63,749 nt of DNA from Halorubrum lipolyticum DSM 21995 (GTDB taxonomy: Archaea; Halobacteriota; Halobacteria; Halobacteriales; Haloferacaceae): positions 1-63,749 of the forward strand of contig NZ_AOJG01000039.1 in NCBI RefSeq assembly GCF_000337375.1. Reading direction: 5' to 3'. A program made the position numbers and the translations under genes. This document shows positions 34,298-62,325 of this stretch, in pieces (the stretch's first letter is position 1; each line of letters opens with the position of its first letter). The notes below the pieces were generated by a model, which was not told the DNA's origin, searched no databases, and saw nothing but the letters and a program-made list of their open reading frames with translations.

Positions 34298-34741
34298 TCA
34301 CACAGTAAGATCGAGTGTCAGTTTGACGTACTCAGTCGCCGAACCGTACTCGTTCTCGATTACCTCACAGAGTTCCCGGTTTAGGGTGAGACCACCACGT
34401 GTGATATTTGCCGAGCCGAGGTAGACGAACGAGTCCGAGACGACAGCCTTCGCGTGAAGTCCGTCGATCTCCTGAACATGGACGTGCTCGGGGAGTCTCC
34501 GTTTGATGTAATCGTTGTGCGATTCCCCGGAGCGAAGCAAAAGATGGATTTCCTTCTCCGAGAGCGTTTCCAGCGCTTCAATAAGGGACACCTCTCGAGA
34601 CTCGAACCGGTCGTTGATCGGGAGACTGAGGGAGACGTCGCTCAGCCAGGGCGAGACCACGACGACAGGGTCGCAGTGCAGTAGCGTGAACCCGATGAAA
34701 TACGAGAGGCTCTCAGAAGGTAAGGAAAACGCTCTTGTCAT
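34298..34741 (-). CDS. dpdK: DpdK-like phospholipase-D-fold nuclease
   Basis: A 147-residue protein with a single HKD motif: HAKAVVSDSFVYLGSANITRGG fits H-x-K-x4-D-x6-G-S-x-N. One HKD motif implies action as a dimer, as in Nuc-type nucleases. An early strand VVVVSPWLSD is typical of the fold. I chose ATG 34,741 (MTRAFSLPSES) because the longer in-frame extension is the shadow of the helicase gene, which it then overlaps by 29 nt. A small PLD protein directly behind a giant helicase is the dpdJ-dpdK arrangement of Dpd systems; DISARM drmC is the closest alternative. Confidence 0.72.
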   Translation of the reverse strand: MTRAFSLPSESLSYFIGFTLLHCDPVVVVSPWLSDVSLSLPINDRFESREVSLIEALETLSEKEIHLLLRSGESHNDYIKRRLPEHVHVQEIDGLHAKAVVSDSFVYLGSANITRGGLTLNRELCEVIENEYGSATEYVKLTLDLTV

Positions 34742-44196: not shown

Positions 44197-47100
44197 GTGT
44201 TGGAGGGAACGGTGATTAGGGCACTGAGAACCTGATTATCGAGCAAGTCGTTCTCGAGGTAGTAGGCGGGCGTGCGCGAAAGGAGTAAGCACTCGTCACA
44301 GTAGTCCTCGCATCGATCGCAGTCGGCGACCTCTTCGACCCGGGCCTGGATGTCATCGAGCGCGTTCCAGACCTGCCAAGCGATCCCGTTCCCACCCTGG
44401 CGGCTATCCACGATGTTAACGCTGATTGTCGATTCAGTCTTGTCTGTATCGACTCGGAAATCCGACCGTTCGCATTGTGCAACGACGGCAATCGCTTTCT
44501 CGAGGGCCTGCTTCAGGCTAACAAGCGCCTGTGGCCATATCTCCTCATCGTCACCGACATCGAGTCGATTGGCAACGTCATTCTGGTCGAACTCGAGAGT
44601 CAGACCCTGCGTATGATACTGTTGGCCGACGGGTGCGTACTCTTCGGTCTCGCTTTCCTCGAGGCGGTCCTCCCACGATTTCCCGCTTTCAGGCGCCGGC
44701 GAAGACGGATCGCGCTCGATGAGGGCTTGCGACCGAAGGACCGACTTATCGGGGCTCGACGAGTGGCGGCGCTCGAACGCGTACACGAAGTCCGTGACAT
44801 CGAGTTCCCCGTAACTTGCCTCACAGTCCAGTCCGAACACAGTCATCGAGGCGGTCTTTTGCGGGGGAACGTCGCTATCGGAGACGGCAGTCGTCATCAA
44901 TCCACGAGTGTTGTATCGCTTCTGTCCGCCTCGTGCTGGTTTACACTCGACCGAACTCACCCCATGAACGTTCGTTTCTTCGAGGAGGGTATCACAGTAC
45001 GGACACTGCTCCGTGTCGAGTTCGTAGCTTTCGAACGGACGCTCACAGTCCTCGTTCGTACACACCATAACCGTCGTGAGCGGTGTCGAACTTCCGCGGA
45101 CGTCATCCACGATGTAGTCCGTACCGTGGAGGGTGACGAGCGATCCCAAGTCGTTCTCCGGGCCGGGGAACATGTCGTAGAGTCGACCGGACCCCTCGAA
45201 CTCGATCCCCTCGGAACGTCCCGAGAACTTCACGGGGAACTGCTGGCCGAAGCTGCGGTAGTTCGCTAGATAACCGAGGCGGCCCAGCCATTGATCGAGG
45301 CGGTTGTTCGATTCGGTGAACGCTTTGTTGGTCTCCGCCGACCCCGACATCGATATGATCTGTGAGAACGTTTTCTCGATACGGTGAGGCATCGAAAGAG
45401 GTCCACTGTCGACGAACACGGACTCGAACGCGTCGATGCCCTGTTGACCGAAGATCGACCGCAGATGTCGCTCGAGTGCTTCTCTGCGTTCCGCAAGCAG
45501 GAACTCCTGGAGAATATCGAGGCTCTCCTCGACACTGTGGACGAACGCGTCCAAGTTCTGGTTGGTCTCGTTCAGGAGGTACTTCCTCTCGAAAACGTTG
45601 GAGGGGTGCGGGTTGCGGGCCAGATACGCGAACGTCTCAGTCACGACATGGCCAGCGAGGAGCTCTTCGAACTCGTAAGGGTCAGGGACACGGACGGGTT
45701 CGAAGTCATCGAGGAACGTTTCGAGATTCCCGTAGTAGTGCCCGTCAACCGGGTGTTCGCCCCGAATGGCGGTGGCGACGAGTGAGGAACTCCCGCGGGT
45801 CCGGCCGGTTCGACCGCTTCGCTGGACGTAGTTCGTAAGCGTTGGTGGAATACCCACTTGGGCGACGGTATCGAGGCTGCCGATGTCGACCCCCAGTTCC
45901 ATCGTCGGCGTCGCGCTGACGATATTGACATCTGGGTCGTCTTTCCGGAATCCCTCCTCGATCGCTCCGCGAAGCGTGTGTGGAACGTTTCCCTTGTGAA
46001 TTCCGACACTGATGAACTCGGGGTCGGCTCCATTCCTTATCGGCGTCGTGATGTCGTGAGCCCAGTGGTCGACGGCATACGACCAGCCGGAGTCGACGTC
46101 CGCATATCCAGGGTCGGCGACGAGCGTTCCGTCCTCGTCACGAGTGAACCGTTGGTACGATTCAATCGGGGTCCCACAGTCGGGACATTCCGTAAGTGAG
46201 GCGTCTCCGACGGGGTACGAGCGGTAGCAGTCTGTACAGAATGACGCCCGCTCTAAGAGCGTAAGCGTCGAGTTGTCGCGGCGCACAACGCGGGTGAGAA
46301 TTCCTGTTTCTGACTCCTCGTCATGAATTCCGGCCTCGTTGAACTCGTCGCGGACTCGCTCAACGTATTCAACGGTTTCCTCTTTCCGGTCCTCACTGAC
46401 GTTCGCGTTCGCTATCGTCTGCCTGACCTCTTCCCACGATTGCTCGACGACGATTGAGTCGTCGAGCAACGCATCAAGGACCTCAGGGAGGACGTTGTAG
46501 ACGGTTTCGGTATCGTAGCCAGAGCGCGACGAAATTCGTTCGGCAATCTTGGGGAGCGAGAGCCCCTCGATGTCGATGGTGTTCTTCGAGAATCCCACCC
46601 GAGGATCCTTCACGAACAGCTTGTAGGCCTCGTGCGCAACGACCCGTTCGGTCGGGTCGTCGAACTGGATGACAGGCTCCGCGGTGACAAGTGCGCTATC
46701 GAGGAGGTTTTCCGCGTTGTGAAGCATCGCGTGAGCTTCGATATCGTCGAGAAGCGTACGGAGGAAGTTGTACGCCGTCCCATCCTCGTCGATCTCGTTC
46801 TGGATGAGCGGCTCCCAGTATGCTTCCCGGAGCTCGTCGGCGACTGCACGGAACGCCTCGTAGTTGCCGGCGCTGCCCCCGTTCTCGATCAGATGTTGTA
46901 CGTAGAGCGTTTCGGCCATCAAGCCGTACTCCGTCCCGATGATGCTGTCACCGACAGACTCGGCGGCGCTGTGGGAGTCCGAGAAGACGAGCGTCTTCTT
47001 CGACGGGCTTGTTCGGCAGACCTCCGTCAACATGTATGACAGAAGGCTCGTCGTCGGCACGCCGATATCTGTGAGCCGGGGCCACTGACCACAGCCCGGG

Positions 47101-48923
47101 CAGTCGTCGACGGGGGCAGCATGGTCGAACGGTCGGAAGCTCTCCTCGTCGTCGGCCGTATCGTGTTCGACAAACGGATAGTGACACCGCTTACAGAACT
47201 GGATCTCCGCGTTTCGTGTATCGCACACCGTGCAGTGTTTATCCCGCGTAACGTCGCTGCAAGACTCACAGAGGTAAGCCTGGGTCGGCGGCTTCAGGAA
47301 GACGTGGTACTTCTCCGTCACCATCCCCGCAAGGCGACCGAACGCCATCACCGCGTCCAGCACTCCGGCGGTCTCGTCGACACCTTCGTCGGCGAGCTCT
47401 GCGAGGAGTCCGTCATAGTGTCTGAACCCGACGTCGCCGGTCGTCCCTTCGTCGAACCAGCTAGCGAACGCCGCAGCCTCGGGGACCTGCGAGGTGACGA
47501 AATCGAACCACTCGCTATCGAGGCCGCCGGCCTCAAGCAACGTGTCGGCAAGATGGTTCTGTCCCGATTCAGTGGATGCAACCTCCGACACCGAGTCGAA
47601 CGTGTTGTCCGCAAGGAGAGCATCGACTTCGTCAGTGAGAGGGTTCCGAACCCAATCGAGGCTTGATGGGAGGGTTACGACATCCGCAGCACTGACAGAC
47701 ACGAGACCGACTTCGCTGACCGTTTCGTAGGCATCCTTGAGGCCGGCTTCGGCGAGGTCATCGGGGGTTGATTCGCCGAGGTCGGCAAGGGCGAGTACAG
47801 CGGCGATCTCACCGAGGTCACACGGCGCAAACCGATCGAACGAGGGCGATGATTGTATCGGGAACTTCCGTGGCGTGAAATCGATTGAGTTGATTTCGGC
47901 TTCTGGCGTTCCAGTGAGTTTGTGTGCGAGTTCCCTGGGGTTGTCCACGGTGGCAGAGACCATCGTGATCTGGGGATCTCTCTCGGCGTAGAACGATTTG
48001 AGCCGCTCCGAGAGGAGCCGAACTGAGGCTCCGGAGATGCCGCTCCAAACGTGGGCTTCGTCGAAAACGACGTGCTCGACGGGGTGTTGGCCCGGGTCTT
48101 CTCCGAGTATCTGGCGTGTTTCGGAGTTGTTGCTCACGAACATATGGTCGAGCGCCTCGGGGTTCGTGAGAAGGATATCTGCGCCGTTTCTGATAGCGTC
48201 CCGTGTCACCCGGATCCACGAATATTTGTTATCTTCCGTTCCCACCGTCATGTCGCCGAGCATCCGGAGCTTCTCGCCCTCCTCTCGCGGACATTCGAGT
48301 CCTCGAACGTACGAACCCTCCTCGATTTCGTGTTCACGGGTCCCTATCCGAGTCGGTGTGTCGGAATCCCAAATCCCGATCGTAATCCTGTCTTCGGGGT
48401 CACGGTGGCGGTTAATCCGATCGAGGTACGAAATAAACCGATTGAGCTGGTCAACACCGAGAGTCTTCATCGGGTAGACTATTAGCGACTTCAACCCCGG
48501 TTCGTCTGTGGAGATACAGTGATCAAGGATCGGGAAAAAGAACGACTCCGTCTTCCCCGTCGCAGTTGGCACCGCTAAGACGTTGTCGTTCGAATCAGCC
48601 GAAATCGATTCAATCGTCTCAGCCTGATGTTCGTAAAGCGACCCGCCCGGGTCGCCATCAAATAGGTCACCGATGATCGCGTCGATGAGTTCGTCACTGT
48701 AGTCGAGATCGCCGAGGAACTCTGCCGCTGATCGCTCATGGAATTTCGGAGCATCGACGAACTCGACGTATGGACCCTTTTGTTCGACGATTTCGTTCCG
48801 GATGAACGATGTCGCTTCCTCATCGCCGACTACTTCATCGAGTCGAGTCATTTGGCGGTTCCACCAAGTGATCTCTGCCGCACGGTCAATCGCGGAGTCG
48901 AGTGTTCGCTGTGGTGAATGCAT
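44193..48923 (-). CDS. Giant SF2 helicase with zinc sites and DUF1998 C-terminus (MrfA/Dpd-type)
   Basis: A 1,576-residue helicase. Motif I is VPTATGKTESF (about residue 117), Ia YPMKTLGVDQL, II FDEAHVW (about 288), III VSATVDN, V SATPTMELGVDIGSLD (about 1,000), and VI QRSGRTGRTRG. Zinc-type clusters occur at CESCSDV...CTVCD...CKRCH and CTDCYR...CPDCG. The C-terminus has RQGGNGIAWQVWNAL and CDRC...CDECL, the DUF1998 signature seen in MrfA-like repair helicases and DrmB. It probably fills the DpdE or DpdF helicase role. It is coupled by ATGA to the next gene. Confidence 0.8.
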   Translation of the reverse strand: MHSPQRTLDSAIDRAAEITWWNRQMTRLDEVVGDEEATSFIRNEIVEQKGPYVEFVDAPKFHERSAAEFLGDLDYSDELIDAIIGDLFDGDPGGSLYEHQAETIESISADSNDNVLAVPTATGKTESFFFPILDHCISTDEPGLKSLIVYPMKTLGVDQLNRFISYLDRINRHRDPEDRITIGIWDSDTPTRIGTREHEIEEGSYVRGLECPREEGEKLRMLGDMTVGTEDNKYSWIRVTRDAIRNGADILLTNPEALDHMFVSNNSETRQILGEDPGQHPVEHVVFDEAHVWSGISGASVRLLSERLKSFYAERDPQITMVSATVDNPRELAHKLTGTPEAEINSIDFTPRKFPIQSSPSFDRFAPCDLGEIAAVLALADLGESTPDDLAEAGLKDAYETVSEVGLVSVSAADVVTLPSSLDWVRNPLTDEVDALLADNTFDSVSEVASTESGQNHLADTLLEAGGLDSEWFDFVTSQVPEAAAFASWFDEGTTGDVGFRHYDGLLAELADEGVDETAGVLDAVMAFGRLAGMVTEKYHVFLKPPTQAYLCESCSDVTRDKHCTVCDTRNAEIQFCKRCHYPFVEHDTADDEESFRPFDHAAPVDDCPGCGQWPRLTDIGVPTTSLLSYMLTEVCRTSPSKKTLVFSDSHSAAESVGDSIIGTEYGLMAETLYVQHLIENGGSAGNYEAFRAVADELREAYWEPLIQNEIDEDGTAYNFLRTLLDDIEAHAMLHNAENLLDSALVTAEPVIQFDDPTERVVAHEAYKLFVKDPRVGFSKNTIDIEGLSLPKIAERISSRSGYDTETVYNVLPEVLDALLDDSIVVEQSWEEVRQTIANANVSEDRKEETVEYVERVRDEFNEAGIHDEESETGILTRVVRRDNSTLTLLERASFCTDCYRSYPVGDASLTECPDCGTPIESYQRFTRDEDGTLVADPGYADVDSGWSYAVDHWAHDITTPIRNGADPEFISVGIHKGNVPHTLRGAIEEGFRKDDPDVNIVSATPTMELGVDIGSLDTVAQVGIPPTLTNYVQRSGRTGRTRGSSSLVATAIRGEHPVDGHYYGNLETFLDDFEPVRVPDPYEFEELLAGHVVTETFAYLARNPHPSNVFERKYLLNETNQNLDAFVHSVEESLDILQEFLLAERREALERHLRSIFGQQGIDAFESVFVDSGPLSMPHRIEKTFSQIISMSGSAETNKAFTESNNRLDQWLGRLGYLANYRSFGQQFPVKFSGRSEGIEFEGSGRLYDMFPGPENDLGSLVTLHGTDYIVDDVRGSSTPLTTVMVCTNEDCERPFESYELDTEQCPYCDTLLEETNVHGVSSVECKPARGGQKRYNTRGLMTTAVSDSDVPPQKTASMTVFGLDCEASYGELDVTDFVYAFERRHSSSPDKSVLRSQALIERDPSSPAPESGKSWEDRLEESETEEYAPVGQQYHTQGLTLEFDQNDVANRLDVGDDEEIWPQALVSLKQALEKAIAVVAQCERSDFRVDTDKTESTISVNIVDSRQGGNGIAWQVWNALDDIQARVEEVADCDRCEDYCDECLLLSRTPAYYLENDLLDNQVLSALITVPSNT

Positions 48924-48983: not shown

Positions 48984-51900
48984 TTATCCGCCGACATCAA
49001 GTTTGATTCGCATCGCCACCTGTTTGCTGACTCCGTCAACCTCGGCGAGATCGTCTACTGATGCCTTCTTCAGTTTGCTTCGCGTATCGAACCCTGATTG
49101 ACGAAGCGATTGTTCAATTCTGTCTGTGACACCATTTACGTCTCTTAGCTCTCCTGAGCCGGTGTCCGTGTCTGTAGAGACGTTCTCTCCGTTGGAAGTC
49201 TCTGAGTTGTCGTCCTTAGCGGGGTCGGACGGTGGCTGGAAGGATTTCGTTTTATCAAAGGCTTGCTCGGTGGCTGCCGTGTACGTGTCAAAGTAGTTGG
49301 CGATGGTACTAGCAGTCACATGACCATGTTCGTTCATTTCAGCAGTAGAGGGTTTGTGACCGAGTTCATTGGCCACTCGGTGTAGGTCTTCAATAAGTCG
49401 GGCTTCGTTGTCGATTCCGGCCGCATCAAGGCAATTCTGCCAGGATCCGAACACACGAGTGATATCGTTAACTGAGTACTGTGTGGTGTCGCTTACGTCC
49501 GTTGCCTTGAGCGGTCGTTCAAATGTTCCGGCAACGTGTTGAACTGCGTCAAGGAGGTCACGGCGGCTTGGAGTACCGCTGCTTCCTGTGGTGGTTTCCC
49601 CACTACTCGATGTTTCGTCTTCGCTTGGCGATGACGATGAAACGGAGTCAGACGTATTGTTCCGTGAGCTGGTATCGATTCGTTTGGCTTGGAAATCTTT
49701 CGTGCTACTGAGCTCCTGACCAGTCCCCGCGTCTGTCTCCCATCTTTTGTGTCGAGCTTGCTCAATTGTGTATGTGGCCCCGATGGTCCACTCCAGCGAG
49801 AGGTTGTGTGTTGTCCAGATGTCAAGCGGCAGTTCGCTACCGTCTTGGAGTTCTACTTGGAGGCAGGCGTCGCGTTTGCTACCGGGATTCGAGTCAATTT
49901 CGAGGACGGTGATTGTTACTTTGTCGACGCGGCCGTCGGGCAGCGAAACCGTCGAGGATGCGGAGGATGTCGTTTTATCAGACACCGGCTGGTCTGTCTC
50001 GCGGTGCCCGGTAGTCCCTGTGACCGGACCGGTATGGTCATCCGGTGGTTGTGATCGCTTTGGGTTTCTCGTGTTTACTTTGTCTACTGTTTCAGTGTCA
50101 ACAAGTTCTGCTTCGATGAGTGCATCCTCTATACTTCCAAAGGCATCTTCGTATTCATCTGGGTGGTGACTGCCGACGGAATACAGAAGTTTTCGATCGA
50201 TTTTGTCCCAGTCGCTCGCAAGGTTTTGGAGCTCGGTGATGAGCTCCTCTTGTTCCTCTGTTAGTGATGATTGATTTATTTTGAACGTTTCCACTGTGTC
50301 TTCGTCGGCCACACCTGCTTTGACGAGTGCGGCGTCTAAACTCCCGAAAGCGTCTTTGTACTCGTCCGGATGGTGATCACCAACCGAGTAAAGGAGCTTT
50401 CGGTCGATCTCGTCCCAGTCGCTGGCTAACTCCCGTAGTTCGCTGATAAGGTCATCGGGCGTTGAGGTCTCGCTGCTTGTTCTCGTGGTGGTCGTGTCGG
50501 GATTCGAGGTACTGGACGATGTACTAGTTGTGTCCGCTGTCTCGTCTACATCTTGTGTGGCAGTGGTAGGGTTGCTCTCTGTGGGTTCGGGGCCAGTGTT
50601 AGTCGACGGTGTTGGAGACTGTCCCGAGTCATGGACACCGGCGGCAGCGATCGCGGCGTCGAAACTTCCGAAATGTTCGCCGAGTGTGGCTGGTGTGAAG
50701 TGGCTGTGCGTGGCGATATCTCCCATCGTTGGGACGCCGTCGACTTGGTCAGCAACGCGTTGTACGTCACTGATTACACGTTGGTCTGGGTCGATGTCGG
50801 CGGCGTGTAGCGCATCGGTCCACGATTCGAACGCGTCCGTGTAGCGTGCGGACGCGTATCTGCTGTGTGTGTCCATCTCACTGAGGGTTGGATATCCGGC
50901 AAGGACACCGTCAACACGCTGAATTTCGGTACGGAGTTCGTCTCTGCTCGGAGTTCTCGGCTCGTCGGACGACTCAGCGGGCTCTGTGGTGGTGTCGGAT
51001 GCCGTTTTTTCGGCCGTGTGCGCGCTCAGAGCAGTGTGGCTTGCATTCGGTAGCGTGATCGTGACCGTGTCCTCTTCGCCTGGAATATCGTGTGTTTGGT
51101 TCTGGTATCCGGCCCGGGAAACGAACAGGCATGGGTCGCTTCCGGAGGTGGGGGGCGTGATGGTAACGGTGCCGTCCGCGTCGGTAATCTGCTCGGCTGA
51201 GTCCGTGGTGGTTTCGGCGATGACTGCGGCGTTCTTAATCGCCTCACCGTCGGTGTCAGTTACAGTGACGGTGAGACGTGTCGGAGCAGAGTCGGCTGTG
51301 GCTTCGGAGGGCTCCGGAGTAACGGTATGACTGACAGAGTCTTGGACGGGCATTATGCCAGGAGTGAGCGATTCGGGCTGCCAGTACGTTGTAAGTACAG
51401 GTTGCTCCCGAGCTTCGTCCAGTGTCGATTCAATCTCGTCGATCAGTTCATCTAACAAAGCGCGGGCGACGTCGTCGTCAACCATGTCGCTTGTATCGCG
51501 GTTGTCGGCGATGGTGGCGCGTGCTCCGGCAGTCTCCAGTTCCCGGAGTATTTGACTGGTGGTGTCGCTGACGGCGACGAATCCGGGGTGTTCGCGGAAT
51601 CGGGAACCGAGTGCGCGGAATTCGCTGGCACGGCGGAGGAGTCGTCTGCCGTCCTCGCCGGGGATTCGCGCGTCGGTCTCGCCCGGGATGGTGACGACGT
51701 GGTAGAAGTGCGCGTGCTTGTTACCGGTCGGGTTCCGGAGTATCCGGCCGATGCGTTGAATGAGTGACGCGTTCACCCCGCCTTTAGCGAGGTTCACGGC
51801 GATCCCGGCGTCGGGCAGGTCAACGCCGACGCCGAGCACGTCTCCTGGTCCGACGAGCACGCCGGCATCTGCTTGTTTGAACTCCGTGATCGTGTCGTAC

Positions 51901-53645
51901 GGCGCGGCTTCGTCTTTCGCCGGCGTGTACACGGTGTTCGCGTCGAAGTAATCGACAAGATATTCGGAGACTGCGTCGGCTTGTGCGTAACTCTGAACCA
52001 GCACGACGGCCTTCCGGTCCGGGACGTGTTCGGTGAGGAGTTGCCCGATTATGTTGTGCGGCGGGTTCAGTTGCCAGCGTTTCGGTCGGCGGGAGAACGC
52101 GGCGGTGGCGAACGTGTCGAACGCTTCCGACTGATCCCGCGCGTCTTTCCCGTCTTTGCTCTGTGCGAACGACCGGAGGTCCCGGAGCGTTTCGAACGTG
52201 TCCGGGACGGTGGCTGGGACGTCACCGGAGAGTTCCTGCGGCGTGAATTTGTGCGTGTTGGTGTCGTATGTCGGTGTGAGCGTGGTGGTCGAGTCTGCGA
52301 CACCGGCAAGCGTGTCGTCGGAGTTACTCGCGGCGTAACACACGTCCCACCGAAAATCCGCGATGACGTTCTGCTCGCGGGCTTCGGTGATACCGAACTC
52401 GATACATTGAGCCAGGTTCGCTTCGAGCGCGTCTTTGACGCCGGAGTCGCCGAGCCACTCGTCATCGATCGACCCGGACATCGCCAAGACGCTGTCGGCG
52501 TTCGTCGTGAGGTCATCGAATAAGTCACGCCACCCGCGACTGCCACGCCGCCCGCTGCTGTATCGGTGGGCTTCGTCTAAAATGACGAGGTCGTAGTGCA
52601 GCCCGGGGTCGGCTGCGAGGAGTTCCTGTGCGGTGCGGAATTCGATGTCGCCCCACGCCAGTTCGATGTGCCGGTCACCGTCACTGCCTGTTTCGGTACG
52701 GCTCCGTGGGATGTTCAGATGCTCGTCGAACTCGCTTTGCCACTGTTCAAGGAGTAAATCCTGTCCGGCGACGATAAGCACGGTTGCACGGCCCGTCGGT
52801 GATCGTGTTGCTGCCGGGATGCCAGCCGTGTCTGCAGGGTGTAAATCGCCGAACAGGTGCGCAATGGCGGCGAGGCCGAGCACGGTTTTCCCGGTGGCGG
52901 TCGCCATGTTCACGTACCCGGTCGTCCCGTTGGCGACCCAGTTCGCGATCGCGCGTTGCTGATGGTCCCACAGTGGCGTGACCATTTGCGGTCTATCGAG
53001 GTGTGTTAATAGGCTATCCCCGCCGATACTGTTTCCAGAGTCCGCGGTGATTGAGTCGATGAGAATATCTGCGTAGTTCGTTACGGCCGGGTCGGAGAAC
53101 AGTTGATACAGCAGGTCAGCGACGGCTTCCGGTTGTTGCAGTGGCTGCCGAGACAACTCTTCGTCGCCGTGTTGCGTGATGAGTTTCTCGATGAGCGCTT
53201 CGGTTGCGCGGTTGAGATCTCCAATTTCGCTGTCGTCTAACCCGAGTTTCGTGAGTTCAACGCGGAGTTCATTGAGTCGGAAGACCAAGTCGCCGATGTC
53301 GCTTGCGTCGTATTCAGTGATGAGTTGTGGCAGGTCTGACTGTGACCCAGCAAGGGCTTGCAACCCGTCAACATAGTGTGATCCGCACGCCGTACCAAAA
53401 TCCATACGGCCGATCGTCGCTCCGTGATCGAAGGAAGCGTCAGTCGTTCCGAGCGCGACGCCGTACGTAACATCTATCGCGGCGCGGTCAATCTGTGATG
53501 GCCAATCGCCCTGTGTCAACGAGTTTTTGGAGAGCCGCGCGTCATAGAACTGCTCGTCAAGATCCGTGTACGAAGTACGATCATCGACTTGATTTTTGAA
53601 CGGATCCATTATTGAGGTGATAACTGCTTGCCATCCTGTCATCAA
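48984..53645 (-). CDS. SF2 helicase with PEGA-like, homing-endonuclease-repeat, OB-like and HhH modules
   Basis: A 1,553-residue mosaic protein. The N-terminal half is a type-III/SNF2-like helicase: motif I ATATGKTV (about residue 248), II ILDEAHRY (about 357), VI QRIGRILRNPTG. Then come a carboxypeptidase-regulatory-like beta domain (about 51,040-51,310), several SxxxALxAAGI repeats like the homing-endonuclease-associated repeat, two nearly identical repeats (about 50,130-50,250 and 50,335-50,457), an OB-like domain (about 49,677-49,937), and C-terminal helix-hairpin-helix. Thr/Ser/Asp linkers separate modules. Start may be 53,645 or 53,609. It precedes the giant DUF1998 helicase by 60 nt. 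Confidence 0.75.
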   Translation of the reverse strand: MMTGWQAVITSIMDPFKNQVDDRTSYTDLDEQFYDARLSKNSLTQGDWPSQIDRAAIDVTYGVALGTTDASFDHGATIGRMDFGTACGSHYVDGLQALAGSQSDLPQLITEYDASDIGDLVFRLNELRVELTKLGLDDSEIGDLNRATEALIEKLITQHGDEELSRQPLQQPEAVADLLYQLFSDPAVTNYADILIDSITADSGNSIGGDSLLTHLDRPQMVTPLWDHQQRAIANWVANGTTGYVNMATATGKTVLGLAAIAHLFGDLHPADTAGIPAATRSPTGRATVLIVAGQDLLLEQWQSEFDEHLNIPRSRTETGSDGDRHIELAWGDIEFRTAQELLAADPGLHYDLVILDEAHRYSSGRRGSRGWRDLFDDLTTNADSVLAMSGSIDDEWLGDSGVKDALEANLAQCIEFGITEAREQNVIADFRWDVCYAASNSDDTLAGVADSTTTLTPTYDTNTHKFTPQELSGDVPATVPDTFETLRDLRSFAQSKDGKDARDQSEAFDTFATAAFSRRPKRWQLNPPHNIIGQLLTEHVPDRKAVVLVQSYAQADAVSEYLVDYFDANTVYTPAKDEAAPYDTITEFKQADAGVLVGPGDVLGVGVDLPDAGIAVNLAKGGVNASLIQRIGRILRNPTGNKHAHFYHVVTIPGETDARIPGEDGRRLLRRASEFRALGSRFREHPGFVAVSDTTSQILRELETAGARATIADNRDTSDMVDDDVARALLDELIDEIESTLDEAREQPVLTTYWQPESLTPGIMPVQDSVSHTVTPEPSEATADSAPTRLTVTVTDTDGEAIKNAAVIAETTTDSAEQITDADGTVTITPPTSGSDPCLFVSRAGYQNQTHDIPGEEDTVTITLPNASHTALSAHTAEKTASDTTTEPAESSDEPRTPSRDELRTEIQRVDGVLAGYPTLSEMDTHSRYASARYTDAFESWTDALHAADIDPDQRVISDVQRVADQVDGVPTMGDIATHSHFTPATLGEHFGSFDAAIAAAGVHDSGQSPTPSTNTGPEPTESNPTTATQDVDETADTTSTSSSTSNPDTTTTRTSSETSTPDDLISELRELASDWDEIDRKLLYSVGDHHPDEYKDAFGSLDAALVKAGVADEDTVETFKINQSSLTEEQEELITELQNLASDWDKIDRKLLYSVGSHHPDEYEDAFGSIEDALIEAELVDTETVDKVNTRNPKRSQPPDDHTGPVTGTTGHRETDQPVSDKTTSSASSTVSLPDGRVDKVTITVLEIDSNPGSKRDACLQVELQDGSELPLDIWTTHNLSLEWTIGATYTIEQARHKRWETDAGTGQELSSTKDFQAKRIDTSSRNNTSDSVSSSSPSEDETSSSGETTTGSSGTPSRRDLLDAVQHVAGTFERPLKATDVSDTTQYSVNDITRVFGSWQNCLDAAGIDNEARLIEDLHRVANELGHKPSTAEMNEHGHVTASTIANYFDTYTAATEQAFDKTKSFQPPSDPAKDDNSETSNGENVSTDTDTGSGELRDVNGVTDRIEQSLRQSGFDTRSKLKKASVDDLAEVDGVSKQVAMRIKLDVGG

Positions 53646-55888: not shown

Positions 55889-56521
55889 ATGAATGCACAT
55901 GTTACCTTTGTCCTCGATTCGTCGGGGTCTATGTCGGCCATTCGAGAGGATACCATCGGCGGGTTCAATACATTTCTCGCTGATCAACGCAACGAGGAAG
56001 GGACTGCAACTGTATCTCTCGTTGACTTCAATTCGACAGTCAATATAACGTATCGCGGAACGGCGATTGAAGGCGCTCCCGCGTTGTCGAAAGATTCGTA
56101 CACGCCAGGTGGTCAGACCGCACTCTACGACGCGATCGCGACTGCAATAGAAGATACTACAAGCTTCATCGACGGTATCGATCCTGCGAACCGACCCGAG
56201 ACGGTCGTCGTCGTGATTCTGACTGACGGTAAGGAGAACGCCTCCGAAACGCCGCAGGATGTTATTCGGGAGCAGATCGAAACGCGGCAGCAGGAGTGTG
56301 AATGGGAATTCCTCTTCATCGGCGCGAATCAGGATGCTGCACTAGCTGCTGATAGCATGGGTATCGATGCGGACAGATCTCTCAATATGGCTCATTCGGG
56401 GAAGGGGGCCAGAGCCGCATACGACTCGACATCTCAGCGTATCAGTGACGCACGCTCAACTGGAACGATGTCAGATTTCACCGACGAAGATCGGTTGCGA
56501 CAGGATGAAGCAGATCGTTAA
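55889..56521 (+). CDS. VWA-domain protein
   Basis: A 210-residue single von Willebrand factor A domain protein. The MIDAS metal site is FVLDSSGSMS (residues 7-16, DxSxS), with the distal Thr in TPGGQTALYDAI and the Asp in ILTDGKENAS. It has no signal peptide, so it is cytosolic. VWA proteins often act as scaffolds with AAA or MoxR-type ATPases or in stress systems. It is divergent from the helicase operon and upstream of the transglycosylase cluster; a functional link is possible but not shown. Confidence 0.82.
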   Translation: MNAHVTFVLDSSGSMSAIREDTIGGFNTFLADQRNEEGTATVSLVDFNSTVNITYRGTAIEGAPALSKDSYTPGGQTALYDAIATAIEDTTSFIDGIDPANRPETVVVVILTDGKENASETPQDVIREQIETRQQECEWEFLFIGANQDAALAADSMGIDADRSLNMAHSGKGARAAYDSTSQRISDARSTGTMSDFTDEDRLRQDEADR

Positions 56522-56979: not shown

Positions 56980-57438
56980 ATGCCTTCGCTGCTAGTACAG
57001 TCCTGCTCGGCCACAAAGAATCAGGTGACAGGGCCGACACGGGCACTAGACGTCTACGACGGATACTTTTTCAGAATAATCAAAAAGGCGAAACGAGAGG
57101 ATGCCTTCAATTCCGACATCGACATTTGTATTCTCTCTGCAGAATACGGACTTATCGACGCTGAAGACACGATTACTACGTATGACCGGCGAATGACCCC
57201 TTCTCGTGCTGAGGAGCTCCGTGAGGAGGTGACCGGTGCCATTAGTAAACGTATCGAAAAATCGAGATATGACGAGATAGTCCTAAACTTGGGGAAGGAG
57301 TACCTAGAAGCGGTTGGCGACTTATCTGACCGATACGATGTCGACATATCGACAGTCCAAGGTGGAGGGATCGGGGAGAAGGGAAAACAGCTGAAGCGTT
57401 TCGTCCGGTCGGATACTGTTCCCTCGGTGATTCTCTGA
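56980..57438 (+). CDS. DUF6884-like protein coupled to a DpdA-like transglycosylase
   Basis: A 152-residue protein. It begins MPSLLVQSCSATKNQ, a strand followed by a C-S-x2-K motif, then ALDVYDGYFFRIIKKAK and ICILSAEYGLIDAEDTITTYD, all typical of the DUF6884 family. The C-S-x-T-K motif recalls the PCSxTKPY motif in the fused protein at 60,304-62,325. I chose ATG 56,980 because a TATA-like ATTTTA lies about 28 nt upstream; an in-frame TTG exists at 56,965. Its stop overlaps the next start (TGATG), so it is coupled with the transglycosylase and may modify its base. Confidence 0.75.
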   Translation: MPSLLVQSCSATKNQVTGPTRALDVYDGYFFRIIKKAKREDAFNSDIDICILSAEYGLIDAEDTITTYDRRMTPSRAEELREEVTGAISKRIEKSRYDEIVLNLGKEYLEAVGDLSDRYDVDISTVQGGGIGEKGKQLKRFVRSDTVPSVIL

Positions 57439-58679
57439 TGGCCTCTTCCGGCTCACAGCGCCTTGATGATGGAATATTTGAGATTGTTGACGAGGCTGGA
57501 GACGCTCGAAGTGGGGTGATCAGTATAAACGATACCGAACTGGAGACGCCCAATTTGCTACCGGTGGTGAACTTCTATGCCGGTGGCACTGATTCCAGCC
57601 TATACGGCGGTGGTATCCATCGGACAATCAAGGAGTTCATGAATGGAGACGAGGTCATAAACGGCGGGGATTACAGTCGATATTTCGATGGTGTGATGAC
57701 CTCCGTTGCGTCACTCACTGACTACGGCATCTCGAGAGAACGGTACGAAGACTACATCGCTGCACCGATCAGGGAACGCGATGTATTCGATTTTAACGGT
57801 ACCCTCTTTCTTGACTCAGGTGGATTCAAATTCCTCGGCGATGGTACCTTAGATGGCAGCAATTTTGAGGTGGACGTCGATCAGGAGGCGATCGTTGAGA
57901 TACAGCGGAAACTGGGGGGAGACGTCCTCGTAAATCTTGACCGACCAATTGAGCCGGACGACGACTACTCTACTCGTGTCGAAAAAGCTCGACTGACGGC
58001 CGAAAACGTCAACGAGTTCCTTAACCTAACTACCCAGGACGACACGCGATATCTGACACTCCATGGGTACAACTATTCGATGCTCGATACGTTTCTCACG
58101 GAAATTGAGAAAGCCATCGGCAGGGACCGTGTTCATCGTGAATTCGATGGCGTCGCCCTCGGGAGTCTCGTTCCACTCAAAGACAATAAGGGGAAACTGA
58201 TCACTGCTGTGAGTGATTGCCGTGAAGTGCTTAGTGACTGGGGGTTCGAGGAACTCCCCCTCCACGTACTCGGAATCTCTTCTAGTGCGATCCCTCTCTT
58301 GGCTGCAGTCGGTGCAGACACGTTTGATTCGTCATCGTACATTCACTCCGCCATCAACGGGAAATACGATACGTCATTATACAACTCAGAACCCGTAGAC
58401 GAAGTCGATTTTACGGAATGCGACTGTCAGGTCTGTAGTGATGACGTTTTAGTCAATCGGATGGAAGGGGACGTAGAGTACCAGAAAGACAAACTCGGTG
58501 CCGTTGCGATGCATAACCTGATTATTCAAAAAGAAGAAATAAAACGGATCCAATCCGCGATCCAAACACCGGGAGAGGAAGCGTTGAGATCATATATCGA
58601 ACAGTCATTGGGTCGAGAAAAGTCGATGCAACAGCACGCGCATCGCGTTGTGAACGAATCACTTGGAGGGTACTTCTGA
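57438..58679 (+). CDS. dpdA: DpdA-like DNA guanine transglycosylase (TGT family)
   Basis: A 413-residue tRNA-guanine-transglycosylase paralogue. Asp126 in FLDSGGFKF corresponds to the general acid/base, and Asp297 in GADTFDSSSY to the nucleophile. The zinc site is complete with canonical TGT spacing, C328-x-C330-x2-C333-x25-H359. There is no PUA or other tRNA-binding domain, unlike archaeal TgtA, which supports a DNA substrate. DpdA enzymes exchange guanine for preQ0 in DNA. It is coupled to the DUF6884-like gene upstream and abuts the GHKL ATPase gene downstream. Confidence 0.82.
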   Translation: MASSGSQRLDDGIFEIVDEAGDARSGVISINDTELETPNLLPVVNFYAGGTDSSLYGGGIHRTIKEFMNGDEVINGGDYSRYFDGVMTSVASLTDYGISRERYEDYIAAPIRERDVFDFNGTLFLDSGGFKFLGDGTLDGSNFEVDVDQEAIVEIQRKLGGDVLVNLDRPIEPDDDYSTRVEKARLTAENVNEFLNLTTQDDTRYLTLHGYNYSMLDTFLTEIEKAIGRDRVHREFDGVALGSLVPLKDNKGKLITAVSDCREVLSDWGFEELPLHVLGISSSAIPLLAAVGADTFDSSSYIHSAINGKYDTSLYNSEPVDEVDFTECDCQVCSDDVLVNRMEGDVEYQKDKLGAVAMHNLIIQKEEIKRIQSAIQTPGEEALRSYIEQSLGREKSMQQHAHRVVNESLGGYF

Positions 58680-60230
58680 ATGTCGACAACTAAAACGCCA
58701 CAAGTCAACGAAGTAAACGAATTTTTAGAGATCGCTAGCGACTTCGAGGATCCGCTTGAAGTGATCCGTGAGTCGCTGTCGAACAGTTATGATGCGGGTG
58801 CGACAGAAGTCGAAATCACCATCCGAGACCGACCGATCGGATCGGAGATTGTCATCGAAGACGACGGAGAGGGGATGGATCACGCCGATCTCGAGTCGTT
58901 CTTCGATCTGGGAAATTCCACGAAGCGCGGCCGTCAAAACGGCTCTATCGGGTACAAGGGCCACGGAACGAAGATTTTCTACAAAAGCGAGGAGGTACTC
59001 GTCAATACCACGAAGAACGGGACCAATTTACGCGCACAGATGGAGCAGCCGTGGGAAAAGCTCAATAACCGGACCATGCCCGAGTACGTACTGAACGAGG
59101 AAGCAGTCAAAGAAGGGAACTCCGGGACGCACATTCGCATTACCGGGTTCAAATCCGGCCACGGTTTCTCGCCAGCATCGCTCACTTACAACAAAATCGA
59201 GCACTACCTGAAATGGAAGACGCTCGCCGGGTCAACAGGTCACTTCTTCACCGACGACTTCCGAGAGATGGAGATAACGGTCACTCTCGGCGACGAAATC
59301 GATGATACACGGGATCAACTGGTGATGAACAACAAGCTTGAGTTCCCGACCGAGCAGCTTGAGCCTGGTGAGGGACAGTTCTCTGAATCTCGGATGTGTA
59401 AACACTACCCGCCACGGGAACTCACGGTCGAGACCGAAAATGGGATTGAAACCACTGTAGAGGTGGTTGGAATGGTGGGAGGCAAAGACGCTCGTAACGA
59501 ACTCCCCACTTATGGAAAGCACTCGGCACAGTTCGGTGTCTGGCTGGCAAAAGACCATATCAAAGTTGAGCGGGTCAACGACACCATCTCACACGACAAC
59601 GAGTTCCTCCATTTCTTCTTCATCGCAAACTGCCAAGACCTCGAATTGTCGGCAAACCGTGAAAAGATTCGGAATAAGTCTAGCCCGGTATATCAGGCAA
59701 TCGTAGAGGAGCTCAGCCACTACCTTTCGAAGATTGCATCAGATCCGTGGTTTAAAGACTACTTGTCTCACCGTCGTAAGGCGAAACTCACCCGTCGCGC
59801 AGAGTCCCAACAATCATCTATCGAAAAGCGTGAGCAACGGATTCAAGACCGAAACCGATTCACGCCATCCAACGACGCCGAAGTCGTGCTCGGGTTGGAA
59901 CGCTCGAACCGCTTTGGGGCTGAACCGGAGATCACAGTTGAAGATTACGACCCAAGTGCGGAGGTCAACGCGCTGGTTCGTCAGGATTCGAACCTCTATG
60001 CGAGTTCGATTCACCGTCGGCTTACGGATCACTTTGAGGCGGATAAACCGCTTGAGAGCGTCGATAAAATAGTTTGTTGGTCGTACGGCGACCGCGACGA
60101 GCTGAGCGAACTGGAGCGCTCAGGGTATCATAGTGGAGAGGTCACGATTGACCTTGAGAACGACCGACTGATCTATAACAATGGTCGTCGGCATAATATC
60201 CATATCGTCACGGTTCAAGACAGACTGTAG
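58680..60230 (+). CDS. GHKL (Hsp90/MORC-like) ATPase
   Basis: A 516-residue protein with an N-terminal GHKL ATP-binding domain: N-box ESLSNSYDAGA (about 29-40), G1 EDDGEGMD (about 58-65), and lid IGYKGHGTKI (about 86-95). A second domain like the S5 fold follows (LELSANREKIRN near 320). The C-terminal 120 residues are unrecognised. Similar proteins clamp DNA in MORC, MutL and GyrB families. It starts directly at the stop of the first DpdA-like gene and precedes the second by 73 nt, so it probably assists base exchange in DNA. Confidence 0.85.
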   Translation: MSTTKTPQVNEVNEFLEIASDFEDPLEVIRESLSNSYDAGATEVEITIRDRPIGSEIVIEDDGEGMDHADLESFFDLGNSTKRGRQNGSIGYKGHGTKIFYKSEEVLVNTTKNGTNLRAQMEQPWEKLNNRTMPEYVLNEEAVKEGNSGTHIRITGFKSGHGFSPASLTYNKIEHYLKWKTLAGSTGHFFTDDFREMEITVTLGDEIDDTRDQLVMNNKLEFPTEQLEPGEGQFSESRMCKHYPPRELTVETENGIETTVEVVGMVGGKDARNELPTYGKHSAQFGVWLAKDHIKVERVNDTISHDNEFLHFFFIANCQDLELSANREKIRNKSSPVYQAIVEELSHYLSKIASDPWFKDYLSHRRKAKLTRRAESQQSSIEKREQRIQDRNRFTPSNDAEVVLGLERSNRFGAEPEITVEDYDPSAEVNALVRQDSNLYASSIHRRLTDHFEADKPLESVDKIVCWSYGDRDELSELERSGYHSGEVTIDLENDRLIYNNGRRHNIHIVTVQDRL

Positions 60231-60303
60231 CAGATCTTATTGAGGTCGTCTCATCGCGGAACGACCGAACTTATCACATCCCATCGTTAATGACGCGTAG
60301 AGA

Positions 60304-62325
60304 ATGGCATCGTTTGAGACCGACGCGACTGACGATGCTGGCAACGCACGTCGCGGTACAATCCACACACCGCACGGCGACGTTCAGACACCGGCATTCT
60401 TCCCTGTAGTCAATTTTATCGGTGGGCCTAACGAGAAATCCGGCGGAATTTGGAGTCGATTGCGGAATCATCTCTTCGGAGAACCCGAGTTTCAAGGCGC
60501 GATGTTCCAAGCGATGAGTTTCTTAGATTTCAATATCACACCTGAATCGCTTGAGAACTGGCGCTCGAAACCGATCCACGACCACTTCACTGATCACGAT
60601 CCGGTCAAGCCGTATCACTCACAGCCAGAGAGTTTTACTAAGCCGTTATTCGTAGACTCAGGCGGATTCAAGCTTCTAAACTCCGATACCTTCGGCGACC
60701 CGCCAACGGAGGGTGGCGATGATAATGACTGGGCAATTTACACGAATCCAGAGAGTATTCTAGATCTACAGCTCGATTATGGCGCTGACATCATCGCTAC
60801 CCTTGACTATCCGATTCCGCCGAACCTGAACGATGAGGAGACGACCCAACGAATGGAGGACAGTATCGACAGCGCCATTCGCTGTCTCGAACTCTTAGAA
60901 GACCAACCAGACCCGCCTGCGGTATATATCGCTATTCACGGTCACGACTACGAAACTATCAATTGGTACGTCGGGACGTTCCTTGACCGTGCGACGCATA
61001 TTGACAAGTCATTTGAAGGATTTGCAATCGGGTCACTCGTCCCGCTTAGAACGAACGTCGAAATGCTGGTTGACATCGTGCAAGGTGCGAAAGATGCGAT
61101 TCCTGACGACCGAGAAGATGATCTCGGGCTTCACCTATTCGGGATTAGTGGAAAATTCACAGCACTCCTAGCCCTTCTTGGCGCGGATTCATTTGACTCG
61201 TCAAGCTACATGCAAGCAGCACAGTTCAAGAAGTTCATTAATCGAGAGATCGGGGTTTCAGATGAGGAGCTCGTCCGGAATCCAAACGCTTCGACACACG
61301 ACTTGGGTGATTTTGGTGTTGACGTTGACCGGACAGCCGACGCACGATGGGCAGCGGACTGGTCGAAATTCACTGCGGATCAGATTCCCGACGATTGGGG
61401 GTGTCAATGTCCCGCATGCGATCATCTACGGCGGATAGGTTTCGATCAGCTACAGGGCACGATGTACGACAGCGAGTCGTATGATCGAGACGGCGAGTAT
61501 ATGAAGAGCGATTTTTACGCACTGATGAGCTATCATAACTTCTGTGTCTACCAAGACGAAATGAATCACGTGCGGGAGCTGATCAGCAACGGTGGCGGGG
61601 AGTTGCTTGAATACGTTGCCAAGATGGCTCGCAACGATGTCGGGAATATCAAGCGAGCGCTGAAACGGGCAACCGTACGAGATCGAGAGTTGGCACAGCA
61701 ACTCCGAGAACGTGGCTACAACCGGTTAGTCGCCGATCAGAGCGACGCGGAGCAGGAACGGCTTGATTTGGATATTCCGGTCGATGACCAAGAGATTTCA
61801 CTTGAGCACACACCGGAGGATTTCAACATTCTTCAGCGGAAGGACTACCGTGTCGGCGATGAGCGCGTACTGCTCGTTATCCCGTGTAGCCAAACCAAGC
61901 CGTATTCTAATTCTCGAACGCACCGCGTCGTGGCAGACGTAACCGCTGAGTGGAACGATCAGATCCACAAAGTGACTGTCTCTGGCATGTACGGCCCTGT
62001 ACCCGAACAGTACGAAAGCCTCTCGCAGATCAAATCATACGAGTACGTGCTGACAAACGCTGAGAAACAGCGCCAACAACTCGTCGTGAACCGTTTGGTC
62101 TCCTACCTCGAAGAATACGGCTCACAGTTCGATGCCATCGTTGGCTACGCCACCAGCAAAACCTACCGTACCGTAATAGAGCAAGCGTTCTCCGAGTACG
62201 GAGATGGCGTTGTCCTCCCAAAAGACCCGAAAATGCGCGCACTCACTGAACACTTCAGAACAACTAATCTCGAAGAGCTATCTGAGCACCTAGATGATGT
62301 GCTCTCATCCACACCATCCCAGTAG
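60304..62325 (+). CDS. dpdA: DpdA-like transglycosylase fused to an ArcS-type core domain
   Basis: A 673-residue fusion. The N-terminal 450 residues are a TGT fold with Asp118 in FVDSGGFKL, Asp298 in GADSFDSSSY, and zinc ligands C367, C369, C372 and H411; the last loop is longer than in the first DpdA-like protein. Residues about 520-673 match the archaeosine synthase core with the full motif P527-C528-x3-K532-P533-Y534-x2-S537-x2-H540. ArcS adds lysine to preQ0 in tRNA. Unlike ArcS, the catalytic aspartates of the TGT part are kept and no PUA domain follows. A DNA base-exchange enzyme that also elaborates preQ0 is the best inference. Confidence 0.85.
   Translation: MASFETDATDDAGNARRGTIHTPHGDVQTPAFFPVVNFIGGPNEKSGGIWSRLRNHLFGEPEFQGAMFQAMSFLDFNITPESLENWRSKPIHDHFTDHDPVKPYHSQPESFTKPLFVDSGGFKLLNSDTFGDPPTEGGDDNDWAIYTNPESILDLQLDYGADIIATLDYPIPPNLNDEETTQRMEDSIDSAIRCLELLEDQPDPPAVYIAIHGHDYETINWYVGTFLDRATHIDKSFEGFAIGSLVPLRTNVEMLVDIVQGAKDAIPDDREDDLGLHLFGISGKFTALLALLGADSFDSSSYMQAAQFKKFINREIGVSDEELVRNPNASTHDLGDFGVDVDRTADARWAADWSKFTADQIPDDWGCQCPACDHLRRIGFDQLQGTMYDSESYDRDGEYMKSDFYALMSYHNFCVYQDEMNHVRELISNGGGELLEYVAKMARNDVGNIKRALKRATVRDRELAQQLRERGYNRLVADQSDAEQERLDLDIPVDDQEISLEHTPEDFNILQRKDYRVGDERVLLVIPCSQTKPYSNSRTHRVVADVTAEWNDQIHKVTVSGMYGPVPEQYESLSQIKSYEYVLTNAEKQRQQLVVNRLVSYLEEYGSQFDAIVGYATSKTYRTVIEQAFSEYGDGVVLPKDPKMRALTEHFRTTNLEELSEHLDDVLSSTPSQ

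Follow-up and report, generated by a model that had tools for sequence, protein, structure and literature searches.

A Candidate Haloarchaeal DNA 7-Deazaguanine Writer Cassette with Two Transglycosylases, Each Paired with a YaaA-Type Domain

Introduction

Why should a haloarchaeon encode two guanine transglycosylases almost side by side, each in the company of a small accessory domain? The question is posed by contig NZ_AOJG01000039.1 of Halorubrum lipolyticum DSM 21995, whose 63,749 nucleotides are called the window below. Four consecutive genes at 56,980-62,325 encode a DUF6884 protein, a tRNA-guanine transglycosylase (TGT) homolog described here as TGT1, a GHKL (Hsp90/MutL-type) ATPase, and a fusion of a second TGT with a domain resembling that of archaeosine synthase (ArcS). 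In the literature available to us, DNA 7-deazaguanines are reported from bacteria, bacterial viruses and archaeal viruses, and TGTs are predicted in some archaeal and bacterial BREX-Related Capture (BRC) loci. In the bacterial Dpd system, DpdA puts preQ0 into DNA, DpdB is an associated ATPase that is dispensable in certain clusters, and DpdC (DUF328, PF03883) hydrolyses dPreQ0 to dADG (PMC12839542). We argue that the four haloarchaeal genes probably supply the base-writing part of a Dpd-like island for 7-deazaguanine modification and restriction of DNA.

Results and Discussion

Four Neighboring Genes

The DUF6884 gene (56,980-57,438, forward strand; 152 residues) runs from an ATG at 56,980 to a TGA at 57,436-57,438, and its product is the proposed base-finishing partner of the TGT that follows. 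A longer open reading frame (ORF) from TTG 56,965 is unsupported, as the methionine at ATG 56,980 is aligned in 39/39 homologs. The stop codon overlaps the start of TGT1 (57,438-58,679, forward; 413 residues) in a TGATG join that shares the A at 57,438; the DSGG, FDSSS nucleophile and zinc motifs of TGT1 are intact. The ATG of the ATPase (58,680-60,230, forward; 516 residues; Pfam HATPase_c_3, 4.7e-17), the third gene of an invariant trio, directly follows the last base of TGT1, and its ATP-binding motifs (N35, D38, D61, G63, G65, G91 and K93-G94-H95-G96-T97) are invariant in 39/39 sequences. The fusion (60,304-62,325, forward; 673 residues) comprises a TGT over about residues 1-450 and an ArcS-type DUF5591 domain over about residues 514-640. 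An earlier note on this DNA, made from the sequence alone, had pointed to the TGATG overlap, to a C-S-x-T-K motif in the small protein and to C-S-x-T-K-PY in the C-terminal domain of the fusion. All three hold: the first motif is C9-S10-A11-T12-K13, of which C9, S10 and K13 are invariant in an alignment of 39/39 homologs, and the second is PCSQTKPY at residues 527-534, part of the signature PCSQTKPYx2Sx2H. A chance occurrence of CSxTK was rejected on profile, fold and conservation evidence.

Two Sister Transglycosylases

TGT1 matches Pfam TGT (7.3e-23) and TIGR00432 (1.7e-36), and its closest solved relative is the archaeosine TGT 1iq8 (2.1e-28); the fusion matches Pfam TGT at 4.2e-29. Both keep the DSGG base, the Asp nucleophile and the zinc ligands when aligned, with variant zinc-ligand spacing in some fusions. 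The DSG[GS] pattern is present in 39/39 TGT1 sequences, 28/28 fusions and 18/19 TgtA, and in 0/15 ArcS. The nucleophile is found by a loose pattern in 39/39, 28/28, 18/19 and 3/15, respectively, and by a strict pattern in 38/39, 25/28, 18/19 and 0/15; the 19 TgtA include TgtA_L245, a repeat of the H. lipolyticum sequence. By these motifs both enzymes are predicted to be catalytically complete.

Against the DpdA model NF041059 (cut-off 200 bits), TGT1 scores 25.6 bits and the fusion 16.3; against the TgtA model TIGR00432 (cut-off 350 bits) they score 125.6 and 86.8. The term "DpdA-like", applied in the earlier note to the TGT at 57,438, is therefore loose as a family name, and TGT1 is a subfamily of its own, neither DpdA by the curated model nor canonical TgtA. 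We built one unrooted TGT-domain tree, for which TGT1 and the fusion were thinned to alternate rows, TgtA and ArcS were represented by their first 18 and first 14 loci, respectively, and the H. lipolyticum sequences were added. In this tree, which has long branches, the fusion forms the sister clade of TGT1 (support 98), a relationship not foreseen in the earlier note, and the two group with plasmid TGTs of haloarchaea and cyanobacteria, apart from TgtA and ArcS. The fusion as a simple ArcS derivative is rejected for its TGT half, which is sister to TGT1 and not to ArcS.

A Shared Fold in the Accessory Domains

The DUF6884 protein matches Pfam DUF6884 (8e-13; 49.1 bits, cut-off 30) and DUF5591 (8.6e-5), reaches YaaA/DUF328 below the cut-off (2.1e-5; 24.6 bits, cut-off 29.6), and in PADLOC matches PDC-M57A (3.8e-10) and DpdC (1.8e-7). 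The C-terminus of the fusion matches Pfam DUF5591 (2.2e-15; 57.3 bits, cut-off 26) and NCBIfam ArcS (3.8e-18); DUF5591 is the archaeosine synthase domain, which the genome's own ArcS matches at 4.9e-60.

Both domains were modeled from alignments, that of DUF6884 comprising 30 trio rows (the window and 29 of the 38 other loci) and two second-copy rows, and the fusion over residues 486-673. The mean predicted local distance difference test (pLDDT) values are 88.5 and 78.9, respectively. A Foldseek search of 350,542 PDB chains returned a single match per model at E<=0.001, the same entry in each case, 2q07 (AF0587; 2.6e-5 for DUF6884, 2.9e-4 for the fusion domain); the DUF6884 model also matched YaaA (5caj) at 6.7e-3. 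With VIA-align 2, the DUF6884 model aligned to 5caj at Z 10.9 (150 residues, 3.5 A) and to 2q07 at Z 9.4 (121 residues, 3.4 A), with the next match at 6.6. The fusion domain aligned to 2q07 at Z 12.4 (131 residues, 3.1 A), followed at 9.1 and below by unrelated-looking proteins, other folds at Z 8.1-9.1 being a plant resistance-protein N-terminal domain and cutinases. YaaA 5caj is absent among the 50 VIA matches listed for the fusion domain, and 2q07 is its link to the DUF6884 model. In profile searches 2q07 is matched by the fusion domain at 4.1e-11, in an alignment that covers the motif, and the two best matches of DUF6884, both weak, are 5caj (0.014) and 2q07 (0.045). Direct comparison of the two profiles aligns their CSxxK motifs at E=2.7e-4 with a probability of 41.6%, which is suggestive only.

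These models indicate that the DUF6884 protein shares the YaaA/DUF328 "cantaloupe" fold and that the two accessory domains have one predicted fold in common. The earlier note had supposed that a similar module accompanies both transglycosylases, once split and once fused, and had proposed a comparison of folds; that comparison, with 2q07 matched by both models, sustains the idea, and unrelated folds did not occur. Together, Pfam, PADLOC and the YaaA fold place the DUF6884 protein as a DpdC-type partner, at the level of the superfamily only.

The same matches bear on another function for this protein, compatible with the other alternatives considered below, in which it is a DNA-repair or base-flipping/binding factor and not a nitrile-converting enzyme. 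The Bacillus DUF6884 protein YfjM is among DNA-lesion interactors and has an AlphaFold3 base-flipping model (Pfam paper, PMC11701544), and uracil-DNA-glycosylase structures are among the weak Foldseek and VIA matches here. However, the SMUG1 matches (best Foldseek E=0.013) rank below 2q07 and YaaA, the gene is coupled to a TGT in 39/39 trio genomes, and its kinship is with DpdC, a dPreQ0 hydrolase (PMC12839542). We consider such a repair or binding role unlikely.

An ArcS-Type Domain Probably outside the tRNA Pathway

The pattern PCx3KPYx2Sx2H, which we took from the archaeosine literature to be the ArcS motif and then checked, occurs in 15/15 ArcS, in the window fusion and in 25/28 fusions; the remaining 3/28 retain PCx3KPYx2S, and the core PCx3KPY is found in 0/19 TgtA. 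Against the whole-protein ArcS equivalog NF040592 the fusion scores 65.4 bits (cut-off 440). With DUF5591 and this signature, its C-terminal domain is a predicted ArcS-type domain, and the fusion appears to unite in a single chain two activities that are split over TgtA and ArcS in tRNA archaeosine synthesis. A second, stand-alone DUF5591 match (52-77 bits; ORFs of 226-335 residues) is present in addition to canonical ArcS in 17/41 genomes; in these ORFs an ArcS-type domain would have a further use with no TGT attached.

This resemblance raises the possibility that the cassette modifies tRNA or other RNA, as a duplicated archaeosine machinery for special tRNAs such as those of mobile elements. 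The closest solved relative of TGT1 is an archaeosine tRNA TGT, and the fusion domain is ArcS-like. Pfam detects no PUA domain in TGT1, and neither PUA nor TGT_C2 in the fusion; a PUA match is likewise lacking in the TgtA of this genome, so that its absence from TGT1 alone says little. The ArcS of the same genome, in contrast, has both domains that the fusion lacks. Canonical TgtA and ArcS are encoded separately elsewhere in the genome, so tRNA archaeosine is provided for; moreover, the cassette is patchily distributed (39/392 genomes) and linked to Dpd-like helicases and GmrSD-type genes. An RNA substrate is therefore very improbable in our judgment. With regard to DNA, Hutinet et al. considered the case of Halovirus HVTV-1 and judged it highly unlikely, on account of the PUA domain, that the host ArcS acts on DNA (PMC6884629). 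The fusion has no PUA match, and this objection does not apply to it. The same authors mention a haloarchaeal host DpdA, EMA11768 (PMC6884629).

Distribution and Probable Independence of the Two Modules

We surveyed 392 genomes of the order, by searches that may miss weak copies. The ATPase is found in 40/392, one of which (G088) has broken pieces only. Strong DUF6884 matches (E<=4e-31) occur in the same 39 genomes as the intact ATPase, and five others have weak matches only. The complete DUF6884-TGT1-ATPase trio is present in 39/392 genomes, and its order is kept in 38/38 intact loci fetched from other genomes, with gaps of -8 to +6 bases at the first join in 31/38 and at the second in 34/38; larger overlaps may reflect uncertain starts. 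The G088 locus was excluded from these locus counts; its ATPase is broken up over more than one frame, the surrounding 20 kb contain none of the other cassette genes, and the locus appears to be a degraded remnant of the island. The fusion (E<=4e-48) is found in 35/392 genomes: 34 carry trio and fusion, five the trio only, one the fusion only, and 352 neither (nominal Fisher p=1.7e-42). No trio gene lies in the 39.8 kb fetched around the fusion of the fusion-only genome. A non-exhaustive scan of 84,980 species' genomes with two short peptide patterns found the trio in 20/20 haloarchaeal loci, with the fusion at <=10 kb in 18/20. Carriers include Halorubrum cibi, Halopenitus malekzadehii and Haloprofundus marisrubri.

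Outside the haloarchaea, 33 relatives of the ATPase (27-47% identity over the best segment) were identified by the same scan in bacteria and non-halophilic archaea, including Paenibacillus, Kurthia and Methanophagales, where they resemble a stand-alone family. No TGT1, fusion or DUF6884 profile match was found in the flanking DNA examined, which for seven contigs is just 4-9 kb, nor on one viral contig with an ATPase relative (26%). In this non-exhaustive scan, a general role of the GHKL ATPase as a TGT partner is thus unsupported beyond the haloarchaea.

In the five trio genomes that lack the fusion, the trio is immediately preceded by a gene for a 310-residue protein and a second DUF6884 gene. 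The former is 26% identical (3e-16) to gp33 of Halorubrum tailed virus 29 (HRTV-29), annotated DpdA, and the latter 41% identical to gp32, annotated YaaA; the two viral genes overlap (L201:3610-4735). The 310-residue protein has no Pfam, PADLOC, NCBIfam or PDB match and weak PHROG matches, and gp33 itself has no Pfam match. Kinship with TGT was not seen in a profile comparison, made with about one effective sequence. It is called TGT-like solely from its 26% identity to gp33, which was named DpdA by its authors. With the "like" resting on gp33, 39/39 trio genomes are predicted to have a second TGT or TGT-like protein with its own YaaA-type partner. The 310-residue gene is conserved among the five loci (L079-L082, L086) and has relatives on three haloarchaeal plasmids, on one of which (L202) it lies beside several DNA methyltransferases. 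In the sections available, the HRTV-29 paper puts YaaA among metabolic genes and makes no connection to DpdA (PMC8651126); gp32 and gp33 are probably a DNA-modification pair rather than a matter of peroxide stress.

A viral origin of TGT1 or the fusion was rejected, as searches of phages and viral contigs gave no confirmed relative of either: none on the viral contigs, and among phages none for TGT1 and one weak match for the fusion. The latter (OR844993.1, labeled Staphylococcus phage SA 1306 Kay, unverified) looks like an ordinary bacterial TGT and may be host contamination.

Do TGT1 and the fusion act as one enzyme? The earlier note had raised a heteromer and two different bases as possibilities. 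The eukaryotic QTRT1/QTRT2 enzyme is a TGT heterodimer whose partner subunit is non-catalytic. By analogy, TGT1 and the fusion could be a single composite writer, either as a heterodimer or by reading the two strands of an asymmetric site, with the accessory domains serving one final base. Their sister relationship (support 98), their joint presence in 34/392 genomes and the correlation of their distance matrices (r=0.82) agree with this, as do two TGT or TGT-like writers in 39/39 trio genomes, if the virus-type DpdA relative and its DUF6884 are counted in five. However, both keep their catalytic motifs, unlike the eukaryotic partner subunit, and a virus-type replacement would be unlikely to offer the same interface. 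Over 28 rows the distance matrices correlate for all pairs (r 0.78-0.95). The highest value, 0.95, is reached by TGT1 with the ATPase, above its 0.82 with the fusion, and also by the two fusion halves with each other. Fusions have clearly been exchanged in four locus pairs, e.g. L071/L076 and L095/L096. The five trio genomes without a fusion and the one fusion without a trio argue against an obligate heteromer. We therefore think a composite writer has a low probability, and these data together speak for a pair of writer modules that can be exchanged rather than for a fixed heteromer. The different accessory families would fit two different bases.

A Proposed Mechanism

For a writer of two modules acting on DNA we infer the following scheme. 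PreQ0, from the QueD, QueE and QueC encoded in the window or imported, would be exchanged for guanine in DNA by the two sister TGTs, and the putative nitrile-processing domain of YaaA/DUF5591 fold paired with each would convert the inserted base. The DUF6884 protein, as distant kin of DpdC, would most likely hydrolyse preQ0 towards dADG. In the fusion, the ArcS-type domain would most likely add lysine (dPreQ0-Lys) or ammonia, and dPreQ0-Lys might be finished to dG+ by a host radical-SAM enzyme. In the archaeosine pathway, ArcS moves lysine onto preQ0, even in the free nucleoside, but solely in complex with RaSEA, which completes preQ0-Lys to G+; for the Methanocaldococcus enzyme the donor is ammonia, Asn or Gln and not lysine (PMC11298593). 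TGT does not exchange preQ0-Lys back (PMC11298593), and by analogy conversion by the partner domain would trap an otherwise reversible base exchange. In place of DpdB, the GHKL ATPase would probably serve TGT1 as a DNA clamp driven by ATP, and helicase, phospholipase D (PLD) and ATPase genes at 34.3-48.9 kb would be the matching restriction half.

More tentatively, a single genome might contain two DNA 7-deazaguanines, namely a dADG-like amide made by TGT1, DUF6884 and the GHKL ATPase, and preQ0-lysine or dG+ made by the bifunctional fusion, which would carry out on DNA the reactions of both TgtA and ArcS; the helicase/PLD module would then read a double mark. A lysine-carrying deazaguanine, if present, would to our knowledge be a new DNA base. 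Our literature search found no cellular archaeal two-TGT writer and no TGT-ArcS fusion acting on DNA, with earlier mention possible in PMC10164549 and PMC10966956. If the proposal is true, the archaeal tRNA archaeosine pathway is joined to DNA restriction-modification, and the uncharacterized family DUF6884, as well as DUF5591 outside tRNA, would gain a likely role. The pairing of DpdA with a "peroxide stress" YaaA protein in HRTV-29 may have the same explanation.

preQ0 Genes and Restriction-Type Neighbors

Genes for preQ0 lie upstream in the window: QueC (20,675-21,364, reverse strand; Pfam QueC, 5.8e-73); a radical SAM protein (21,459-22,235, reverse; Radical_SAM, 1.4e-17), a probable QueE by virtue of its QueC neighbor; and a probable QueD of the 6-pyruvoyl-tetrahydropterin synthase (PTPS) type (22,235-22,813, reverse), named from its translation, its position and a PTPS gene beside QueC in another locus (L073). 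They are followed by a Vut_1 transporter (22,877-23,536, forward; Pfam Vut_1, 4.4e-39), a member of the family of YhhQ and a candidate for preQ0 uptake; a second copy lies elsewhere in the genome. Naming each neighbor family from a single representative, we find one or more of QueC, PTPS (QueD-type) and radical SAM (QueE-type) in 14/38 loci and all three in 11/38.

The putative restriction half lies on the reverse strand. First by coordinate is a PLD-family ORF of uncertain start (34,298-34,957; Pfam PLDc_2, 1.2e-7), a possible DpdK-like nuclease, which as listed overlaps by 245 bases a DpdJ-like superfamily 2 (SF2) helicase of 1358 residues (34,713-38,789; NCBIfam DpdJ, 4.7e-46; PADLOC DpdJ, 2.2e-47). 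Next come a 246-residue protein with weak coiled-coil-type Pfam matches and no confident family (38,871-39,611), and a 961-residue P-loop ATPase with remote similarity to DpdH (39,541-42,426; NCBIfam DpdH, 8e-8; weak AAA matches). Two proteins without Pfam match, of 279 residues (42,428-43,267) and 310 residues (43,264-44,196; distinct from the 310-residue protein that replaces the fusion in other genomes), separate this ATPase from a 1576-residue SF2 helicase resembling DruE, BrxH and DpdJ (44,193-48,923; PADLOC DruE1 3.3e-42, BrxHI 6.1e-37, DpdJ 1.9e-26). A similar gene order is seen on a Natrinema plasmid (L140) that also carries trio and fusion, where counterparts of the 246-, 279- and 310-residue proteins were judged by similar size and order and not by alignment. 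On a Haladaptatus plasmid (L138), helicase, PLD, DUF6884, TGT and ATPase genes follow one another in a row, accompanied by two fusions.

Scoring two candidates per genome, we found the DpdJ-like helicase in 26/392 genomes, of which 25 carry the trio and the remaining one has just the fusion. Tabulated against the trio, 25 genomes have both, 14 the trio alone, one the helicase alone and 352 neither (nominal Fisher p=1.9e-28), and where a single contig holds both, as in 24 genomes, the distance between them is 2.1-31.1 kb. The 14/39 trio genomes in which this search found no such helicase, and the other defence-like genes around the loci, are what would be expected if the island only protected DNA, as an anti-restriction or regulatory mark, with the nearby helicases as independent defence genes in a shared hotspot. 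Yet all 26/26 helicase carriers have the trio or the fusion; that the helicase was never found without a writer is as restriction-modification predicts, where a nuclease side is toxic without modification. Marking alone is in our view a doubtful account, and a modification-restriction island is preferred.

Other neighbors were also recorded. A GmrSD-type (DUF262/DUF1524) gene, its family named from a single representative, lies near the cassette in 11/38 loci, directly after the ATPase in L079-L082. As DUF262 is regarded as a sensor of modified DNA (PMC12137116), this gene may by analogy be a modification-guided effector. In the window, 48,984-53,645 encodes a 1553-residue helicase with similarity to PbeA, six HNH_repeat stretches and an HhH domain, and a family with an HNH_repeat/HhH representative recurs in 8/38 loci. 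Between this gene and the cassette, 55,889-56,521 encodes a vWA-domain protein, also found upstream in L071 (80% identity).

Several observations weigh against a DNA-modifying writer and its restriction half. ArcS is a tRNA-acting enzyme, neither TGT approaches the cut-off of the DpdA model, and the neighbors fall far below their curated cut-offs (157 bits against 800 for DpdJ, 31 against 450 for DpdH). Profile searches of TGT1, the fusion domain and DUF6884, and the literature examined, gave no experimentally characterized close homolog. The model of the fusion domain is of middling confidence, and its direct profile match to DUF6884 is weak. Because the 392 genomes share ancestry, the evidence is weaker than the Fisher p-values suggest. 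In only 27/38 loci is the fusion inside the fetched 20 kb, and in one genome (G003) it is 179 kb away. DUF6884 correlates equally with TGT1 (0.81) and the fusion domain (0.82), a test that does not single out its partner. Lastly, the window QueC is the only strong one in the genome (245 bits, against about 24 for two other matches) and therefore serves tRNA too; the que genes could mark an insertion site rather than a dedicated pathway.

Comparison with Known Systems

The bacterial Dpd system (dpdABC writer, dpdD-K restriction) offers a similar general plan, with a TGT, a DUF328/YaaA-superfamily partner and an ATPase as the writer, preQ0 genes nearby and, as putative restriction genes, those for a DpdJ-like helicase, a PLD protein and a remotely DpdH-like ATPase. 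In contrast, the haloarchaeal cassette is archaeal and has two TGTs instead of one, neither of them DpdA by the curated model, and an ArcS-type domain is fused to the second. Its third gene encodes a GHKL ATPase in place of the ParB/DndB-like DpdB, which had no match among the part of the window ORFs scanned with PADLOC.

Archaeosine synthesis by TgtA, ArcS and RaSEA provides the second parallel, with preQ0 exchange followed by an ArcS-type reaction and a shared PCx3KPYx2Sx2H. The fusion differs in that its TGT motifs are intact, whereas ArcS no longer has them (DSG[GS] in 0/15), and in having no PUA or C2 match. The HRTV-29 gp33/gp32 pair likewise sets a transglycosylase relative and a DUF6884 protein as overlapping neighbors; it differs in that phage records and viral contigs hold no homolog of TGT1 or the fusion, one weak match excepted. 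BRC systems resemble the island in having recruited a TGT into an archaeal or bacterial defence locus, but comprise PglZ, DUF6079, HerA/FtsK and DUF4007, and their authors, in the sections available, found no homolog of DpdB or DpdC (PMC12839542), whereas here each TGT has a predicted YaaA-type partner. None of these four BRC components is among the matches listed for those window proteins that were scanned, in which no search was aimed at BRC.

Two TGTs in one locus are also seen on plasmids. On pHsi139 of Haloarcula sinaiiensis, in what is an independent case, a TGT is joined to a C-terminal DUF6884-like domain (WP_004966131.1; Pfam 28.8 bits, just under the 30-bit cut-off). This protein differs from ours in that NCBIfam identifies it as a true DpdA (263.7 bits against a cut-off of 200) and in the company it keeps: the 969-residue DpdA (L139:3945-6854) lies beside QueE, QueD and a separate 344-residue TGT, followed by a BREX-type ATP-binding protein, which makes pHsi139 a candidate second haloarchaeal two-TGT locus. 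Plasmids of Picosynechococcus (L198:1-7068) and Nostoc (L199:1-7119) encode DpdA and, after it, a helicase, a second small TGT and another helicase, and a second TGT within a Dpd-like cluster is thus predicted in cyanobacteria as well. If the proposed scheme is right, these archaeal loci suggest a common logic, in which each DNA TGT comes with a YaaA-type partner for nitrile conversion, as a separate protein or as part of the same chain.

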